DNA of 8,421 nucleotides from assembly GCA_003818675.1 (NCBI GenBank), contig RPPD01000070.1:1-8421 (forward strand), written 5' to 3'. Both the position numbers and the translations under genes were made by a program. A model generated the notes under the pieces. It ran no database searches. It saw only the letters and a program-made list of their open reading frames with translations, and was not told the DNA's origin. Of the stretch, positions 576 to 8,420 are shown piece by piece. Numbering within the stretch: position 1 is the first letter of the stretch; each line of letters opens with the position of its first letter. The DNA comes from Spirochaetaceae bacterium. GTDB taxonomy: Bacteria > Spirochaetota > Spirochaetia > SZUA-6 > RPPD01.

Positions 576-1151
576 TTGATAAGGGAAAAAGCGCTCGACT
601 TGTTTCAGGCGTATTCCGAAAACAAGATCCCCCGTGATGCAGGAACAATAATCAGGGGCTTCTATGAACCTGAAATCCACTACCACACATTTGAAATCAC
701 GCAGTATGCAAATATCAGGGCCTTGCTTCTTGGAGATGACGGAATCACATTCAAGTCAAACGCATACAGGTTTTATGTGATCATTGAACCTGCGTCATAT
801 GCAGAAAGAGACATACCCCCTGCCTTACGGCATCTGAAGAAAATCGTACCTCATAACTTGCTCGATATGGAAAGAAATGTATCCTCCTCCGGCATCACAG
901 TCTATCACCACCGCGAGCCTGCAAGACTCTATGGTTTTTTCTCCATTTCAAATCCCGCAGGCTCGGATTTTGCATTGATTTTCCCCATGGCCCCTGATGT
1001 CTTTTCGGTAATGAACCGTTTCCTGGGCCTGACATTAACCGATGAATGCGGACTCCCCAAAGATGAGGCATTTCATCTTGCCAACGAATCTGTAGATTCC
1101 ATAAAAATAAACTGCGGGGTTAAAAATGAGCGACCTGATTTTGGCGATTGA
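576..1151 (+). CDS. Uncharacterised 191-residue protein
   Basis: I do not recognise this protein. The frame is open from further upstream (TTG at 498), but I choose the TTG at 576: it has GGGAG seven bases before it (564-568), and the 26 residues upstream would overlap a candidate promoter and have no Shine-Dalgarno. The product begins MIREKALDLFQAYSENK and is a mixed alpha/beta soluble-looking chain with no signal peptide or membrane segment. It is rich in His and aromatic residues in two places (EIHYHTFEITQY; ITVYHHREPARLYGFF). Its last 26 bases overlap the next gene, an FGGY kinase, so the two are probably co-transcribed and translationally coupled. A job linked to the kinase is only an inference. 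Confidence that it is a real gene is good because codon use and length look genuine. Confidence 0.7.
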   Translation: MIREKALDLFQAYSENKIPRDAGTIIRGFYEPEIHYHTFEITQYANIRALLLGDDGITFKSNAYRFYVIIEPASYAERDIPPALRHLKKIVPHNLLDMERNVSSSGITVYHHREPARLYGFFSISNPAGSDFALIFPMAPDVFSVMNRFLGLTLTDECGLPKDEAFHLANESVDSIKINCGVKNERPDFGD

Positions 1152-2691
1152 CGTTGGAACCCAGAGCATCCGCTCGATTCTTTTCAATCTCAGGGGTGAA
1201 ATCAAGGCAAGGGAGCGTGTGGCAATCGATGCCCATTACAGTGTCAAACCAGGCTGGGCAGAGCAGAGACCTGAATACTATTATGAAAAACTCTGCGAGT
1301 CCACGAAAAAACTTTTTGCGCCATTTGCTTCAGGCCAGGATGGAATCCTTTCTGCAATCAAGGGCTGCTCAATCACAACACAACGCTGCACACTTGTAAA
1401 CGTTGACAAGACTGGCAATCCCTTAAGGCCCGCGATTGTCTGGCCTGACCAGCGCAGAACAAAAAAGATACAGCCCCTGCGCGGGATAATGGGGGCGGCC
1501 ATAAAGCTCATCGGTCTGCTTCCTACTGTGCAATCCGCCCAGAGAGAATCAGAGATCAACTGGCTTAACCAACACCAGCCACAAATAATGGAACAGACAC
1601 ACAAATATCTGTTTCTCTCCGGCTACCTTCTTTATAAACTTACAGGCCGCTTTGCAGATTCCTACGCGGCTCAAGTGGGTTATGTTCCATTTGATTATCA
1701 GCATTTTGACTGGTGCAAACCCGGTACATGGCAATGGGACGCCTTTCCAATTGACATGGGAAAACTTCCGGAGCTCATCCCGCCTGCTGCAGTCGCTGGT
1801 TCCATCAGTAAAAAGGTGAGCGAGGAAACAGGAATTCCTGCGGGCATTCCTGTCGTGACATCAGGTTCTGACAAAACATGTGAATTCCTGGGTGCAGGCT
1901 GCCTGTCTCTCCACCAGGCGGGAATATCACTTGGCACAACAGCCACAATCGGCATCTATCACAAAAAATACTTCGAGACAATTCCATTCATCCCGCCCTA
2001 GTCTGCGGCAGTGCCCGGTATGTACAATACCGAATTCCAGATCTACCGCGGATTCTGGCTGGTATCATGGTTTAAAAGCGAGTTCGGTGAACGCGAGGTC
2101 AAGCGCGCAATGGAAGAAAACCGCGAACCTGAAGAGCTTTTGGAGAAACTCCTTGAGGAAACCCCTCCGGGAGCACTCGGACTCATGCTTCAGCCAACAT
2201 GGTCTCCCGGTGTCAAGATTCCTGGCCCGGAAGCAAAGGGTACCATAATGGGTTTTGGCGACGCACACACCCGTGCGCATTTATATCGTGCAATTATTGA
2301 GGGCCTTTGCTACGGGCTTAAAAGCGGAGGTGAGCGTATACAGAAAAAAAGCCACGTTCCATTTTCTGAAATCCGCGTCTCAGGAGGCGGAGCGCAGAGT
2401 GAACATACACTTCAAATTACTGCGGACATTTTCAACCTGCCCGTAAAGAAGCCTCATATACATGACACGTCCTCGCTTGGCGCCGCAATAGACTGTGCTG
2501 TGGGGCTTGGCCTGTTTTCCGGATTCACGGAAGCTGTGTGTGAAATGACACGTATTGAAAGAGAATATCTGCCCGATCCATCTCATGTAGCGCTTTATGA
2601 AACACTGTACAGTGATGTGTATGAGCACATTTATGAGAAACTCAAGCCCTATTACCAGCGCATCCGCGAAATCACTGGTTATCCGGATTGA
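1126..2691 (+). pseudogene. FGGY-family carbohydrate kinase interrupted by an in-frame TAG
   Basis: Together the two halves make a 521-codon reading frame, the normal size for FGGY sugar kinases, which phosphorylate a sugar or polyol with ATP in the cytoplasm. Seen in the first half: the phosphate-binding N-terminus LAIDVGTQSIRSILF (6-20), the PGWAEQRPE motif (42-50), the sugar-contacting WPDQRR (106-111), and GSDKTCEFLGAG (247-258) with the likely catalytic base Asp249. Seen in the second half: IYRGFW, the adenosine motif VSGGGAQSEHTLQ and SSLGAAI. The only lesion is a TAG at codon 292; the frame then continues unchanged. A GTG at 2011 could restart translation but has no Shine-Dalgarno, and neither half alone would be a kinase. 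The substrate cannot be named. The start ATG at 1126 overlaps the preceding gene by 26 bp and has only a weak GGGG upstream. It is either a recent pseudogene, a suppressed stop, or a base-call error. Confidence 0.85.
1999..2001 (+). other. In-frame amber codon splitting the FGGY kinase
   Basis: The frame reads ...PFIPP-TAG-SAAVPGMYNTE.... Related kinases, from memory, carry an aromatic residue such as Tyr between the Pro-Pro and the small residues here, so TAG most likely arose from TAT or TAC by one base change. No insertion or deletion is involved. Confidence 0.85.
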
Positions 2692-2754: not shown

Positions 2755-5391
2755 TTATTCCTCGCCGAGGTTGATCCTGGCCACCGCGAGCTTTGCAATG
2801 GGGACCGAGTAGCTGGAACAGCTGACATAGTCAAGACCTGCCTGCATGCAGAACTTGATGTTCTCAGGCACAGCACCGTGCTCTCCGCAGAGTCCCTTCT
2901 TGAGATTGGGCCTGGTCATGGTGCCTCTGCGTACAGCAATTGTGATAAGCTCCTTCACATATTTGTCCAGGTACTTGAAGGGATTGCCCTCCAGCAGGTC
3001 AAACTGTGTATAATCCGGCATGAAGGAGTTGAAATCATCCCTGGACAATCCGATTGTCGTCTGGGTGAGGTCATTTGTCCCAAAGGAGAAAAACTCGGCA
3101 TACTTGGCGATGTCACCGGCACCCAATGCCGCCACGGGCAGTTCAATCATGGTACCGATCCTGTAAGGCACAGCCCTGACCTCGAGCTTTTCGCGAACTT
3201 CCTTCTCTATGTCTATCAGTCCCTTTACAGATGCACCCTCGATCTTCTTTCCATAAACTATCATTTTGAGTTCTGTGTCATTCATGACAATCGGAATCAT
3301 GATCTCGGGCATCACCTTGACGCCCTCCTTGCGAAGTGCATAGACCGCCTCGAAGATTGCGCGCATCTGCATCTCGTAGATTTCAGGATATGATATGGCG
3401 ATGCGGCATCCGCGGTGACCCAGCATTGGATTGAACTCATTGAGCGTGGTGCACCTCGCCTGCACCTCTGCTTCCGATATTTTCATCTTGCCCGGCTGCT
3501 TGCGCAAATACGCGATGAATTTTTTCATCTCTTCAGTATTGTGGGGCAGGAATTCATGCAAGGGCGCGTCAAGAAGCCTGATTGTGACTTCAAAGCCTTC
3601 CATTATCTTGAAAAGCTTGTAGAAGTCTGCACGCTGCATGGGCTTGAGTTTGTTCAGCGCCTCGCGCCGTTCCTCGACACTGTCCGATATCACCATTTCC
3701 CTGAAGACATTGATGCGCTTTTCGTCAAAGAACATGTGTTCTGTTCTGCAGAGTCCGATCCCGTGCGCGCCGAAGGTCCTGGCAAGTGTCGTGTCCTTTG
3801 GGGTGTCGGCGTTTGCCCTGACCTCAAAGTCCTTCATGAACTCGCTCACAATGTCATTAAATTCAAGCAGGCCGGATGATTCAGGATCCGGTTCAATAAG
3901 ACCGGCCTTCCCGAGATAGATGGAAGGGTCGCCGTAATAGGGTACATTCAGTGTTAGAAAATCTCCCTTTTTGATCACGACATTCCCGATGACAGCCTGG
4001 TCGTCACGAATCTTCATCTTTGTATTTACAAGCGATACTTTTCCGTACTGGCGCGCGACAACCGATGCGTGGGCCGAATATCCTCCCTCGTTTGAAAGAA
4101 CTCCGGTGGCGACCTCAATAGCCTTAACATCCTCGGCGAATGTCGCCGGCAGACAGAGTATGAACCTTGTGTCCTCGCCTGACTGCTGCGCCTTTTTATA
4201 TGCGTCAAGCAGTTCCTCAGTGTCAAAATAAATCTGGCCAATAGCTGCACCGGGTGCACCGCCTATTCCTCCCGGCAGGGTTTTCAGTGTTTTGACGGAA
4301 TTGATGTCTATGATGGGGTGCAGTATTTCACCGAGCTGGTTGGGCTTTATCTGCCTTACAGCGTAATCCTTCTGGATTACCTTTCTCTTCAAAAGGTCAA
4401 GCAACAGCTGTATATCCGCCTGCGTGGACTTGTTCATCACGCCGCGCTGGTCGATCAGCCACATTCTCTTGTTTTCAATGGTAAACCTGATGGAGCGAAT
4501 CTCCTTGTAGTGGTCCTCAATATTCTGCGCCACTTTTTTCAGCTGGTCATGGTAATTCTTGGCAATCTTGTTGATGTCCATGCCCGCGGCTCCCAGGTCG
4601 TCGAAACGCTCCTGGAAATATTCGCCCGTCAGGTTCTTTGCACCAGTTACAATGTCCCTGGTGAAAAACATTCCGGAGGCCGAATCCTTGCCATAGTTTC
4701 CGTAAACCATGGGCTGGATAATGAGCGCAGTATCGTCATCGTCCATTTCATCAAGATCCAGCATCAGGCTGATTCTTTTAAGCGCTATTTCAAGCTGGTC
4801 ATAGGGATCTGCAAAGAAGTTCTTTGGAAGAAGTCCCTGATATTTCTGGATTGTTTTTTTCCTGTCCGCGACCTTGGCATTGTCGTCCTTAAGTTCATCT
4901 CCAAGCACCTTGATGGCGTCCTTGATGGCCTTCAGGTCTTTTTCCCTGTTCTGGAGTTCTGCTATCCTCGCCTCGATCTCAAGGCATCCCTTCATCATGA
5001 ATTCCATTTCATGGTAGCCGAAGTTTTCTCCGACATAGCTGTTGAATGCCGCCAGATTGTTTTCGCACAATCCAAAATTGTGCATGGTCGGATAATGCAC
5101 AATGACGAGGTTGGGGCTGATTACTATTTTAACCAGCATGGGATTTGCGGGATCGCCGTATTTTTTCCCAACTATTCTTTCAATTCTGGCAAGCGCGGTC
5201 TTCAGGTGATCCTTCAGTTTCTCATCTTTTAGATGCGCGGCAACTTCGGAATCAATGATGAAACCCGGCAGAATGGGAAGGTCAATGGAACCAAGTTCCA
5301 TGGCTCTTCGGCCGCGTATGCCGATGCTTTCAAGAATGTCAGGATCCGAAATGGAGTCGTGCGAGCTGAAAAAATGGATGTTCTTTTTCAT
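2755..5391 (-). CDS. Pyruvate phosphate dikinase-like protein with a diverged ATP-grasp domain
   Basis: At 878 residues this matches PPDK length; PPDK interconverts pyruvate, ATP and Pi with PEP, AMP and PPi. The phospho-His domain holds GGYSAHASVVARQYG (436-450) with His441, though family T-S before the His is S-A. The PEP/pyruvate barrel is well preserved: CRTEH (Arg549), VTIRLLD (Arg605), LGHRGCRIAISYPEIYEMQ (658-676), GTMIE (Glu750), FGTNDLTQ (Asn773, Asp774) and LCGEHG (Cys835). The N-terminal ATP-grasp part is clearly homologous (MVYGNYG, FFTRD, GEY) but lacks several residues needed for ATP chemistry, and residues ~137-185 look coiled-coil. It therefore may not act as an ordinary dikinase. 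It lies 27 bp after the 343-residue gene, with AGGGA before its ATG, and ends at a strong terminator. I leave the symbol blank because activity is doubtful; the treponemal counterpart is called ppdK. Confidence 0.88.
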   Translation of the reverse strand: MKKNIHFFSSHDSISDPDILESIGIRGRRAMELGSIDLPILPGFIIDSEVAAHLKDEKLKDHLKTALARIERIVGKKYGDPANPMLVKIVISPNLVIVHYPTMHNFGLCENNLAAFNSYVGENFGYHEMEFMMKGCLEIEARIAELQNREKDLKAIKDAIKVLGDELKDDNAKVADRKKTIQKYQGLLPKNFFADPYDQLEIALKRISLMLDLDEMDDDDTALIIQPMVYGNYGKDSASGMFFTRDIVTGAKNLTGEYFQERFDDLGAAGMDINKIAKNYHDQLKKVAQNIEDHYKEIRSIRFTIENKRMWLIDQRGVMNKSTQADIQLLLDLLKRKVIQKDYAVRQIKPNQLGEILHPIIDINSVKTLKTLPGGIGGAPGAAIGQIYFDTEELLDAYKKAQQSGEDTRFILCLPATFAEDVKAIEVATGVLSNEGGYSAHASVVARQYGKVSLVNTKMKIRDDQAVIGNVVIKKGDFLTLNVPYYGDPSIYLGKAGLIEPDPESSGLLEFNDIVSEFMKDFEVRANADTPKDTTLARTFGAHGIGLCRTEHMFFDEKRINVFREMVISDSVEERREALNKLKPMQRADFYKLFKIMEGFEVTIRLLDAPLHEFLPHNTEEMKKFIAYLRKQPGKMKISEAEVQARCTTLNEFNPMLGHRGCRIAISYPEIYEMQMRAIFEAVYALRKEGVKVMPEIMIPIVMNDTELKMIVYGKKIEGASVKGLIDIEKEVREKLEVRAVPYRIGTMIELPVAALGAGDIAKYAEFFSFGTNDLTQTTIGLSRDDFNSFMPDYTQFDLLEGNPFKYLDKYVKELITIAVRRGTMTRPNLKKGLCGEHGAVPENIKFCMQAGLDYVSCSSYSVPIAKLAVARINLGEE

Positions 5392-5418: not shown

Positions 5419-6450
5419 CTAAAAAAGATTGAGTATGTGATTAACCGGAAATTTCAGGAATGACTCAAACAAATGGCTTGCTCCCTGTTTCAGATACCGC
5501 TGGAGCTTCGCGACATCCTTGATGTCTGAGCCCGCGACCGCTATGAGGATAGCGCATCCGTGCTTGACCTTTCCCCACTTGAAGAGGGTGTTGATGTCAT
5601 GGATCCTCTCGCCCTCGTAGAATATGTAAACCTCAAGTCCGGGATATTTCGTGGTGTAGCTTTCTATGATTTTTTTCCATGCCTCCACGTTTCCGTTGTG
5701 GAAAAGTTCGTTGGTCACTGGAATTGAATAAAACGGGGTCATGCGCGAGCTACCGCCAGTCGCTGCCGGTGCCCCTTGAGCCTTTGACTTTATTGCCGCT
5801 GGTGCAGCTTTCCCTGCAGCGGCCTTTTTCCCTTTTCCCCTCGCGGGAGCGGCTTTTTCCCTGCGCGGCTTTTGGACCACGGCAACCTTCTTGGCAACCC
5901 TTACTTCCTTCACTGTGAGTGATCCTCTGACCAGCGAAGGGGATGCCTTTGGCTTTTCCAGATCAAGCAGGCCAAGACATCTCCCCAGGGCAAGCTCTTT
6001 GATCTCGCCGGAGACGGTTCCCTTTGCCGCACCGACATATACATTTACAAGCTCGTTTTTCTTCATGTTCTGCACGGCCTTGAGACTTTCAAGCCGTTTT
6101 GGATTAATAATGGTAATGCCCAGTTCCGGGTGGAAATACACGAAAACGACATCAACTGCCTTCCATTTTGAAATTTCCCCGGCGATAGTCTCAAACTCGG
6201 TGATGTTCACAGAGAGATTTGTTGATTTGACTGAATAATGGTACTTGTCCACAAGGATTGAACTTAAGATGGGGCTGATTTGCCCGCCTTCAAGCCTTCC
6301 TTCTGCCATCAGGTTGTTAAGGACATCCGCCAGGTTATAGTTTCCCTCAAGCGAATCAACGATTTCAGTCACGGTTTTTGCATGATTGACGACTTTATTG
6401 AAGGTCTCTCGACGGTTTAGGACCTCGACCTCGTGTAATAAGTTTGTCAT
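5419..6450 (-). CDS. Uncharacterised cfpA-linked protein with a basic Lys/Ala/Pro-rich linker
   Basis: A 343-residue protein of unknown function, in the position of T. pallidum TP0747 between cfpA and ppdK (gene order recalled, not searched). Three parts are visible. Residues 1-165 look folded, with helices (HEVEVLNRRETFNKVVNHAK) and a beta-like stretch (VDVVFVYFHPELGITIINP). Residues ~182-236 form a low-complexity basic linker (KKVAVVQKPRREKAAPARGK, then GKKAAAGKAAPAA) like histone H1-type tails. Residues 237-343 look folded again (LEVYIFYEGERIHDINTLF, HGCAILIAVAGSDI), ending in a hydrophobic C-terminus FPVNHILNLF. There is no signal peptide. The ATG at 6450 has AGGGAG four bases upstream (6460-6455). 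It begins about 80 bases after the cfpA stop, behind a hairpin, and no separate promoter was seen, so it is probably transcribed by read-through from cfpA. It ends in TAG. Confidence 0.85.
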   Translation of the reverse strand: MTNLLHEVEVLNRRETFNKVVNHAKTVTEIVDSLEGNYNLADVLNNLMAEGRLEGGQISPILSSILVDKYHYSVKSTNLSVNITEFETIAGEISKWKAVDVVFVYFHPELGITIINPKRLESLKAVQNMKKNELVNVYVGAAKGTVSGEIKELALGRCLGLLDLEKPKASPSLVRGSLTVKEVRVAKKVAVVQKPRREKAAPARGKGKKAAAGKAAPAAIKSKAQGAPAATGGSSRMTPFYSIPVTNELFHNGNVEAWKKIIESYTTKYPGLEVYIFYEGERIHDINTLFKWGKVKHGCAILIAVAGSDIKDVAKLQRYLKQGASHLFESFLKFPVNHILNLF

Positions 6451-6530: not shown

Positions 6531-8420
6531 TTAGATTTCTCTCAATCCGCCGCCACGGGTCTTGCGACCCCGACCGCGTTTTGAAGAATCAACAACGCCC
6601 CGTCCTCTTCCAGTTGCGCGGGCAGGCCGTCCTCTTTTGGGAGCACTCGACCGTACAGGATGTGCTGCTGAGAGCATGTCCAGATACTCGGTCTCCTGCT
6701 TTCCGGTTTCAGCACCTTCAGCACCCTCTTCAACCGGCTGTGCCGCAAAAGACTGTGCAATGTCTTCGCGTACCGTAGACCGGCGTCTTGAGAATGAAGC
6801 AAATGCAGCGTCCTGGAATCCCTTGGACACGCCATGGAGGAATTCATTCAGCACGTTTGCCATGCCGTCAAGAGTTGCCTTCTTTCTCTTGATTGACGTG
6901 ATGTCGATATCAAGGAGAAGTCCGGGCTGGATATGATAGGGATTAATAATGTAGTCAAAAGACATGAAATCCGCTTCAAGCTTTGCAAGACGATCTTCCA
7001 TGACGCGCCGCTTGATCGGATAGCGATAGCTGTAAATGCTCTGCATTTTTTCCTTCATGAGAATGATCCGTCTCTTTATCTTGTCTTTTTCAGCAAGATA
7101 AGTCCGGTTCATGGTCTCAATCATGGTTTCCTGGGGCCTGATAAAGGAAATTTCGTCCCAGTGCTTTTCCATGACCTCATACAATGGCTCGCCACTGACC
7201 GCTTTGATCTTGCGGCGAATCTTGTTCTTCTGGCGTTTTGCAAGGTCCTTGAAATCAACAATTCCCTTGAGGAATTTGCTGTCCTCGTACACCATGTCAA
7301 GAACGTCCCAGAGGTGCTGGATTTCAATCTCGAAGGATTTCAGCTGCTGGTCATATGCAATACGCTCGTTGTCAAGCTGTGCCTGATCATAATACTTCAA
7401 CTTAATGGCATATCTCTCGTCAGGCAATGCTTTTGCATTTGTGTCTTCATATTCTTTGATCCGCAGTTCACGGGCGTTCTTCAAGTTTTCAATAAACTGA
7501 TAACCCATTTTTGAGGTGTCAAGAATTGAAGTGATTGAGTTGACTGCCGTGTTGTAACCGCGGTTTCTGATATTTTCAATATCAATCAGTTTCTTCAGGT
7601 TTTCACGGATGTTCAACGCATCGTACTCGGAAGGATCGATTTCAGCGCGAAGTCCTTCGATCTTTTCAATAAGCGACTTTGCGAAGAAAGTATACCGTTT
7701 TGACTTCGGATCATCTTTGTCATCGGAGGTATAGTTGGCGACTCTTCTCATCTTTTCAAAGAGGATCTCGGAGTCGTTCATTTCCTCACGGCCTTCATCA
7801 ATGATCTGGTCCTTCAGTTTCTCAATCTCTTTGTCAAGGATATCCATGATGCCCTTGGAGATGAGATCCTTGATGATGTATTCAACAGTGACCTGATAAT
7901 GGAAGATCGGGCTGATCAGTTCAGAATCAAGAATGTTGACGGACAGTTTCACGTCAGAAACGTTCTTTGGCTTGAAGAGATTGTCCTTAAAGGAACACTT
8001 CACAACGGAGTAGGCGTTTTCGCCACGAATAAAGGCGCCAACGTCTGTCTTCTGGCGAAGCAGTGAGTTCGTGAGATTTTCAAGGTCGTTGACACCTCTC
8101 TGCACATGCCCCTGCAAATGACCGTACATATTGACGATAGATTTCTCTATTTCGCCAGTATTGAACTTGTCCATGCCGCCAATCTGATCCAAGAGGGCTG
8201 CAATTTCTTTCGGCGTATAACGGGCGAGCGTTTTCAGCTCTTCCTTGTCGATGAAGTTGCGGACCTTCTTCACCATTTCATCTTCAGAGGTTACCACAAA
8301 CCTGTTGAACATGTTCTGGTAGTTCTGGTTGAAATAATTATATAGCTTCTCCTTTAAACCGCCCATTACGTCCAGGCGCTCAAGAACATCTCTTGGAAGC
8401 TTCGATGTGATGTGGTTCAT
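6531..8420 (-). CDS. cfpA: Cytoplasmic filament protein A (CfpA)
   Basis: CfpA builds the ribbon of cytoplasmic filaments that runs along treponemal cells beneath the inner membrane, near the flagella; loss in T. denticola is reported to disturb cell division and chromosome layout. The 629-residue product begins [20 protein letters not shown] and is mostly charged, helical sequence with coiled-coil character (for example 184-227, 250-285, 305-405 and 430-485), without signal peptide or membrane segments, as expected of an intermediate-filament-like subunit. After about residue 550 it turns acidic and Ala/Gly-rich ([10 protein letters not shown]), then strongly basic (587-629) with [14 protein letters not shown] and KRGRGRK. 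The ATG at 8420 lies one base from the window edge, so its Shine-Dalgarno and promoter cannot be seen and a slightly longer N-terminus is possible. The T. pallidum protein is somewhat longer, about 680 residues as I recall. Identification is by recognition, not search. Confidence 0.85.

Follow-up and report, generated by a model that had tools for sequence, protein, structure and literature searches.

A PPDK-like protein with a remodelled ATP-grasp site linked to the cytoplasmic filament gene cfpA in Spirochaetota

The 8,421-nucleotide stretch of contig RPPD01000070.1 analysed here (Spirochaetaceae bacterium, assembly GCA_003818675.1), hereafter the window, carries on its minus strand a row of three genes, with cfpA first, orf343 in the middle and ppdkL last, the latter encoding a protein that resembles pyruvate phosphate dikinase (PPDK). 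The filament gene cfpA is recognised by profile NF040882 over positions 46-604, and its 5' start may have been lost at the window edge. The ppdkL frame is open across 878 codons, as the earlier note on this DNA had stated, and its product is divided into an ATP-grasp domain (residues ~1-340), a phospho-histidine domain (~370-490) and a phosphoenolpyruvate (PEP)/pyruvate barrel (~515-875); the ATP-grasp stretch listed below corresponds to its first 364 codons. The features are:

2755..5391, minus strand: ppdkL, PPDK-like protein, 878 amino acids (open frame, profile and PDB alignment, MAFFT)
4300..5391, minus strand: ATP-grasp (nucleotide-binding) domain of ppdkL, with substituted R26, K88, V90, S92, loop 97-102, F131, R299, S300 and R302
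4069..4071, minus strand: codon of His441, the conserved phospho-histidine (Clostridium symbiosum His455; conserved in 123/123 aligned proteins; coordinate by arithmetic from 5391)
2755..3849, minus strand: ppdkL barrel for PEP/pyruvate binding, containing Cys835 and the PEP-site residues (alignment)
5419..6450, minus strand: orf343, 343 amino acids, two predicted HPr-like folds and a Lys/Ala-rich linker (structure prediction)
5674..5706, minus strand: orf343 motif L249-F-H-N-G-N-V-E-A-W-K259 (invariant; coordinates by arithmetic from 6450)
6531..8420, minus strand: cfpA, cytoplasmic filament protein (NF040882, 1064.3 bits, cut-off 500)

To compare the nucleotide site across the family we numbered residues as in C. 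symbiosum PPDK and took the solved PPDK 1dik and 53 canonical spirochete PPDKs as references. A first MAFFT alignment joined 87 ppdkL proteins (window included) to the 53 canonical ones, leaving out the duplicate loci L108-L110, L144, L151 and L152, the frameshifted L147, and L153; a second added 36 more distant members, for a total of 123 (121 clusters at 97% identity, as two pairs are >97% identical). The canonical set was drawn from 55 loci, of which the part-length hits L106 and L107 were left out and L105, which lacks the N-terminus, was kept; the distant set was drawn from 40 further loci, the remaining four of which gave orf343 and no ppdkL.

Across these 123 proteins, Lys22 is always Arg (Arg26 in the window), Arg92 is Val in 120 and Ile in 3 (Val90), Asp321 is never Asp, being Gln in 53, Ser in 26 (as Ser300), Glu, a mild change, in 17 and others in the rest, and Glu323 is never Glu, being Arg in 93 (Arg302), Lys in 24 and others in six. 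The earlier note had proposed these four replacements from an alignment by eye and asked whether they run through the cfpA-linked clade; they are borne out by both the 1dik alignment and MAFFT with the canonical set, and none of the 123 proteins keeps any of the four canonical residues. Further changes were absent from its list: Ser90 to Lys, Gly94 to Ser and Gln320 to Arg in every member, Arg135 to Phe in 103, Tyr in 14 and other residues in 6, and the replacement of Glu279, which remains Glu in just 3 and is Met271 in the window. The PGMMD loop is likewise replaced in all 123, with Gly101 and Met103 found in no member; the reported loss of the MPGMMDT loop therefore stands, and only its pairing with HYPTMHN (99-105) was two to three residues off, since the 1dik alignment sets I97-V98-gap-H99-Y100-P101-T102 opposite it. 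The proposed change of Gln335 to Asp314 depends on the alignment: the 1dik and first MAFFT alignments give it, with Arg337 kept as Arg316 (and in 70/87 members), while the second opens a one-residue gap that puts Gln335 opposite Gln315 and loses Arg337. As aligned, one of the two residues is thus lost in most ppdkL proteins either way, and they can only be counted jointly.

Canonical spirochete PPDKs, on the other hand, show the expected residue at these sites in 51-53 of the 53 copies, the exception being Asp104, which is Glu in 9; for Lys22, Arg92, Asp321, Glu323 and the PGMMD loop the figure is 52-53, with nine Glu-for-Asp exchanges and one Leu-for-Met exchange in the loop. Because the ppdkL substitutions recur in 87 + 36 members while the canonical copies keep their residues, we do not regard them as chance, and from the site counts it follows that the old metal-and-ATP site is short of carboxylates and richer in fixed positive charges. 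A second conserved histidine in this site, His104, was considered as an intramolecular phosphate acceptor and dropped, since 13 of the 36 distant proteins have Phe or Arg there.

The picture is the reverse in the PEP half. His455, Arg561, Arg617, Glu745, Asn768, Asp769 and Cys831 are kept in 123/123 ppdkL proteins, and the MAFFT alignment confirms that the window copy has all of the corresponding residues previously named for it (His441, Arg549, Arg605, Glu750, Asn773, Asp774 and Cys835). Mean pairwise identity among ppdkL proteins is 54% in the N-domain, 68% in the His domain and 69% in the barrel, as opposed to 68%, 61% and 62% among canonical PPDKs, which makes the PEP half the more constrained half of ppdkL. 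Between the two groups, 31 sites are fixed (≥95%) to differing residues. In rooted trees ppdkL forms one clade, with a stem of 1.60 for the N-half and 0.80 for the C-half; as there is one outgroup and node supports after rerooting are low (0.69, 0.145), we claim no date for its origin.

By profile, ppdkL lies outside the families that it most resembles. It scores 689.7 bits against TIGR01828 (PPDK), below the cut-off of 843.45, as do its relatives (608-692 bits where matched nearly full length), and 101 bits against TIGR01417, that of Enzyme I of the phosphotransferase system (PTS), with a cut-off of 341.7; its full-length structural match is PPDK. The coexistence of a second, canonical ppdK, raised as a possibility beforehand, proved common: of the 30 genomes of relatives that carry ppdkL, 25 also have a canonical PPDK scoring above the cut-off, in two (G018, G010) it is fragmented or partial, and in three (G002, G014, G026) none was found. 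Given the sub-cut-off score and the frequent canonical copy, ppdkL is, judged by its sequence, an old, conserved paralogue of PPDK whose ATP-grasp site has been remodelled, and not a decaying gene. We dropped the pseudogene explanation since the 87 + 36 aligned copies have open frames and many of the substituted residues are themselves invariant; what counts against this rejection is a single ppdkL frameshift in each of G043 (L153) and G045 (L147), one internal stop in G324, and a copy reduced to its C-terminal part in G348.

Some variation around these copies was also seen. In G043 and G045, two Treponema-family genomes, the matches to cfpA and orf343 cover the full length of both. The canonical PPDKs of L105 (G022) and L106 (G018) match as two pieces in different frames, and ppdkL is there in one open frame. 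Six loci (L197, L198, L199, L217, L218 and L219) have ppdkL frames of ~965-971 amino acids, ~90 residues longer than the window's, which the phylum search aligns only from residue 144-172 onward.

The link to a cytoskeletal filament gene, which the earlier note had read from the gene row, is tight, as judged from 91 loci, a family of 134 genomes and a phylum sample of 296 Spirochaetota genomes. In the phylum sample, where many genomes are metagenome-assembled and absences are hence soft, ppdkL was found in 106 genomes (E 1e-200), all three genes in 102 and none in 183; cfpA occurs without ppdkL in 7 and ppdkL without cfpA in 3, a co-occurrence with a Fisher P of ~1e-66 when kinship is ignored. 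Of the 91 loci (window included; L144, L151 and L152 are repeats of L076, L060 and L055), 90 have orf343 and 80 have cfpA upstream of ppdkL in the same orientation, a few of these truncated at a contig edge. Where cfpA is missing (11 loci), the contig runs out within 1.4 kb upstream, and the only locus lacking orf343 has 21 bases on that side. In the Treponema-containing family of G028, cfpA is present in 27 of 134 genomes, 26 of which have ppdkL and the 27th of which (G043) has the frameshifted copy, and ppdkL was not found in the other 107 (E 1e-100). Distance varies more than presence: among the 103 genomes with both cfpA and ppdkL, the starts are <4.5 kb apart in 71, 8-10.6 kb in 15 and 158 kb in one, and lie on different contigs in 16. 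Some of these 16 are at contig ends, but not G215, where ppdkL and orf343 are each far from the ends of their contigs (111 and 146 kb) and a third contig carries cfpA; such cases indicate that the genes are retained together even where they are not neighbours. Taken by gene content and order, cfpA, orf343 and ppdkL form a three-gene module of mostly fixed order.

Published data on Treponema denticola touch on this module. TDE0842-44 correspond to it by order and annotation, not by sequence match; in the available part of one report, the 'pyruvate phosphate dikinase' TDE0844 and the CfpA protein TDE0842 are among 16 identified major proteins of an envelope fraction (PMC3931704), and in that of another, TDE0842-44 are repressed with other oral species (PMC3914990). 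In what we found of the open-access literature, as far as available, neither the orf343 nor the ppdkL counterpart is tied to filament function.

The middle gene provides a candidate for the protein phospho-acceptor that had been suggested earlier. The predicted structure of orf343 holds two HPr-like folds, at residues ~72-166 and ~238-330, linked by a Lys/Ala-rich stretch; the predicted first one matches the HPr fold, and the second is a putative HPr-like fold. The His251 motif, which opens helix A of the second fold, is invariant in 91/91 copies (56 of 84 plus 35 distant ones, with L207, split across two frames, dropped). Paired by secondary structure only, His251 falls near the place of HPr His15 with a Gly at that of Arg17, and the first fold has no His at the His15 place.

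Sequence comparisons do not show the HPr likeness of orf343. Pfam, NCBIfam and PDB sequence searches gave the window protein no family match; PF00381 (HPr) was not among the best 25 of 42 families in a Pfam scan of 56 members; a PDB profile search found no HPr likeness; hhalign of orf343 against 30 spirochete HPr proteins was negative, with 3 of 24 ppdkL control windows scoring higher; and hhalign of the two halves against each other was negative too. As sequence and profile comparisons are negative, the likeness is one of predicted fold and motif alone. The 120 listed relatives P0121-P0240 carry the precomputed Pfam accession PF27497, and a newer Pfam may describe the family.

The Treponema pallidum copy is called PPDK in the literature. 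The TP0746 positions 810772 and 811414 (PMC10013896, available part) fall inside the ppdkL of G041 at 810740-813367, and we take this genome to be T. pallidum Nichols or a near-identical strain; by position, TP0746 is its ppdkL and the sole copy there. It carries the same changed sites, and the middle protein has LFHNGN. Profile searches of G041 matched no canonical PPDK and no pyruvate kinase, and did match PEPCK_GTP and the beta subunit of oxaloacetate decarboxylase (OAD_beta), a possible bypass from PEP through oxaloacetate to pyruvate. The same pair without a pyruvate kinase match occurs in G014, G026 and G087, genomes that may be incomplete, and G087 gave no PPDK match of either kind (E 1e-100).

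Against this background of lost ATP-site residues, a retained PEP site, three genes that co-occur in mostly fixed order and an invariant His251 motif, we propose, with a probability of roughly 45%, that ppdkL passes phosphate from PEP to orf343, whose phosphorylation state would in turn tie the state of the CfpA filament to the PEP/pyruvate ratio. The conserved residues suggest that PEP likely binds the barrel and phosphorylates His441, and that pyruvate leaves. The swivelling His domain would then meet an N-domain stripped of its ATP and Mg residues, which would no longer make or use ATP, and the phosphate would go to orf343, with His251 of the second fold as the best candidate acceptor; depending on its phosphorylation state, orf343 would alter the assembly or attachment of CfpA. 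This would develop the earlier suggestion of phosphate transfer to a partner other than AMP and diphosphate. More tentatively, and against somewhat longer odds, the module might be a PEP-driven histidine phosphorelay dedicated to a bacterial cytoskeleton, its PPDK-derived enzyme rewired from ATP synthesis to the phosphorylation of a two-domain HPr-like protein in control of the filament, with T. pallidum consequently having no working PPDK and reaching pyruvate otherwise.

The same conserved PEP site and His441 (123/123) would also suit a PEP/pyruvate sensor with no downstream acceptor, in which phosphorylation of His441 reshapes the swivelling domain, this is read by orf343 or CfpA, and the HPr-like domains only dock. 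The missing Arg17 equivalent beside His251 fits such a sensor, and the fixed basic residues that replace Mg-binding carboxylates (R26, K88, R299 and mostly R/K at 302) could hold an anionic effector; however, a motif invariant in 91/91 copies goes beyond any obvious docking need, and a phosphorylated enzyme without an acceptor would turn over by hydrolysis or back-reaction alone, and we consider this rather unlikely. Were ppdkL a pseudoenzyme and structural subunit of the filament, its PEP site kept just for folding or dimerisation, the strong co-occurrence with cfpA and the joint presence of TDE0844 and CfpA in the T. denticola envelope fraction (PMC3931704, available part) would be accounted for, but not the invariance of His455, Cys831 and the other tested PEP-site residues, nor a PEP half more conserved than in canonical PPDKs, which makes this improbable.

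Ordinary PPDK activity from an unusual nucleotide site is the published assumption for TP0746. According to the available parts of the sources, this protein most probably converts PEP, AMP and diphosphate to ATP (PMC10013896), its transcript level is taken as a report on pyruvate metabolism (PMC8525777), and a strain difference in it is labelled ATP binding (PMC3373638). Ordinary PPDK activity is very doubtful: no member keeps Lys22, Arg92, Asp321, Glu323 or the PGMMD loop, most relatives' genomes hold a second, canonical PPDK, the ppdkL gene follows cfpA, and G041, like G014 and G026, has a possible bypass. The open-access literature searched, as far as available, makes no mention of a missing ATP site in TP0746, and gave nothing for TP0747 or for cytoplasmic filament, phosphocarrier and Treponema combined.

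If phosphate does pass from ppdkL to orf343 as proposed, ppdkL may drive or regulate the filament instead of serving glycolysis; metabolism would probably feed into a cytoskeletal filament through an enzyme annotated as glycolytic, and CfpA gains two testable partners in ppdkL and orf343. The loss of the ATP site challenges the statements on TP0746 as an ATP maker and on its transcript as a pyruvate readout, as given in the available parts of those papers (PMC10013896; PMC8525777). A variant in the TP0746 PEP barrel is reported there at 1% in rabbit-grown bacteria and, for two cultures grown in vitro, at 77% and 83% (PMC10013896); if TP0746 is filament-linked, this shift may reflect selection on something besides glycolysis.

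Elsewhere in the window, an FGGY-type carbohydrate kinase gene (1126-2691, plus strand) is split by an in-frame TAG at 1999-2001 that separates FGGY_N from FGGY_C, parts that adjoin in relatives L001, L002, L018 and others; the TAG may stem from a sequencing error or be a nonsense mutation. The stop codon of orf343 in the window is TAG as well.

Among known systems, CfpA of Treponema (TP0748, TDE0842) has its counterpart in the window, where cfpA heads the gene row; gene order and annotation equate TDE0842-44 with the three genes of this row. With PPDK (TIGR01828; C. symbiosum 1dik, maize 1vbg) ppdkL shares the three-domain architecture, fold, phospho-histidine and PEP-site residues, but differs in its replaced nucleotide and metal residues, PGMMD loop and sub-cut-off score. 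Enzyme I of the PTS (TIGR01417; 2hwg) has a helical HPr-docking domain, which ppdkL lacks, having a PPDK-type N-domain instead. Like HPr, Crh and NPr (PDB 1poh, 9s8k, 1zvv), orf343 has a predicted b-a-b-b-a-b-a fold, here twice, and an invariant His starting helix A of the second; unlike them it carries both folds on a single polypeptide, together with a linker and a helical N-terminal region, has no Arg17/Pro18, and gave no significant sequence similarity. The closest working analogy would be the transfer from Enzyme I to HPr, although ppdkL is by descent a PPDK and falls outside Enzyme I.
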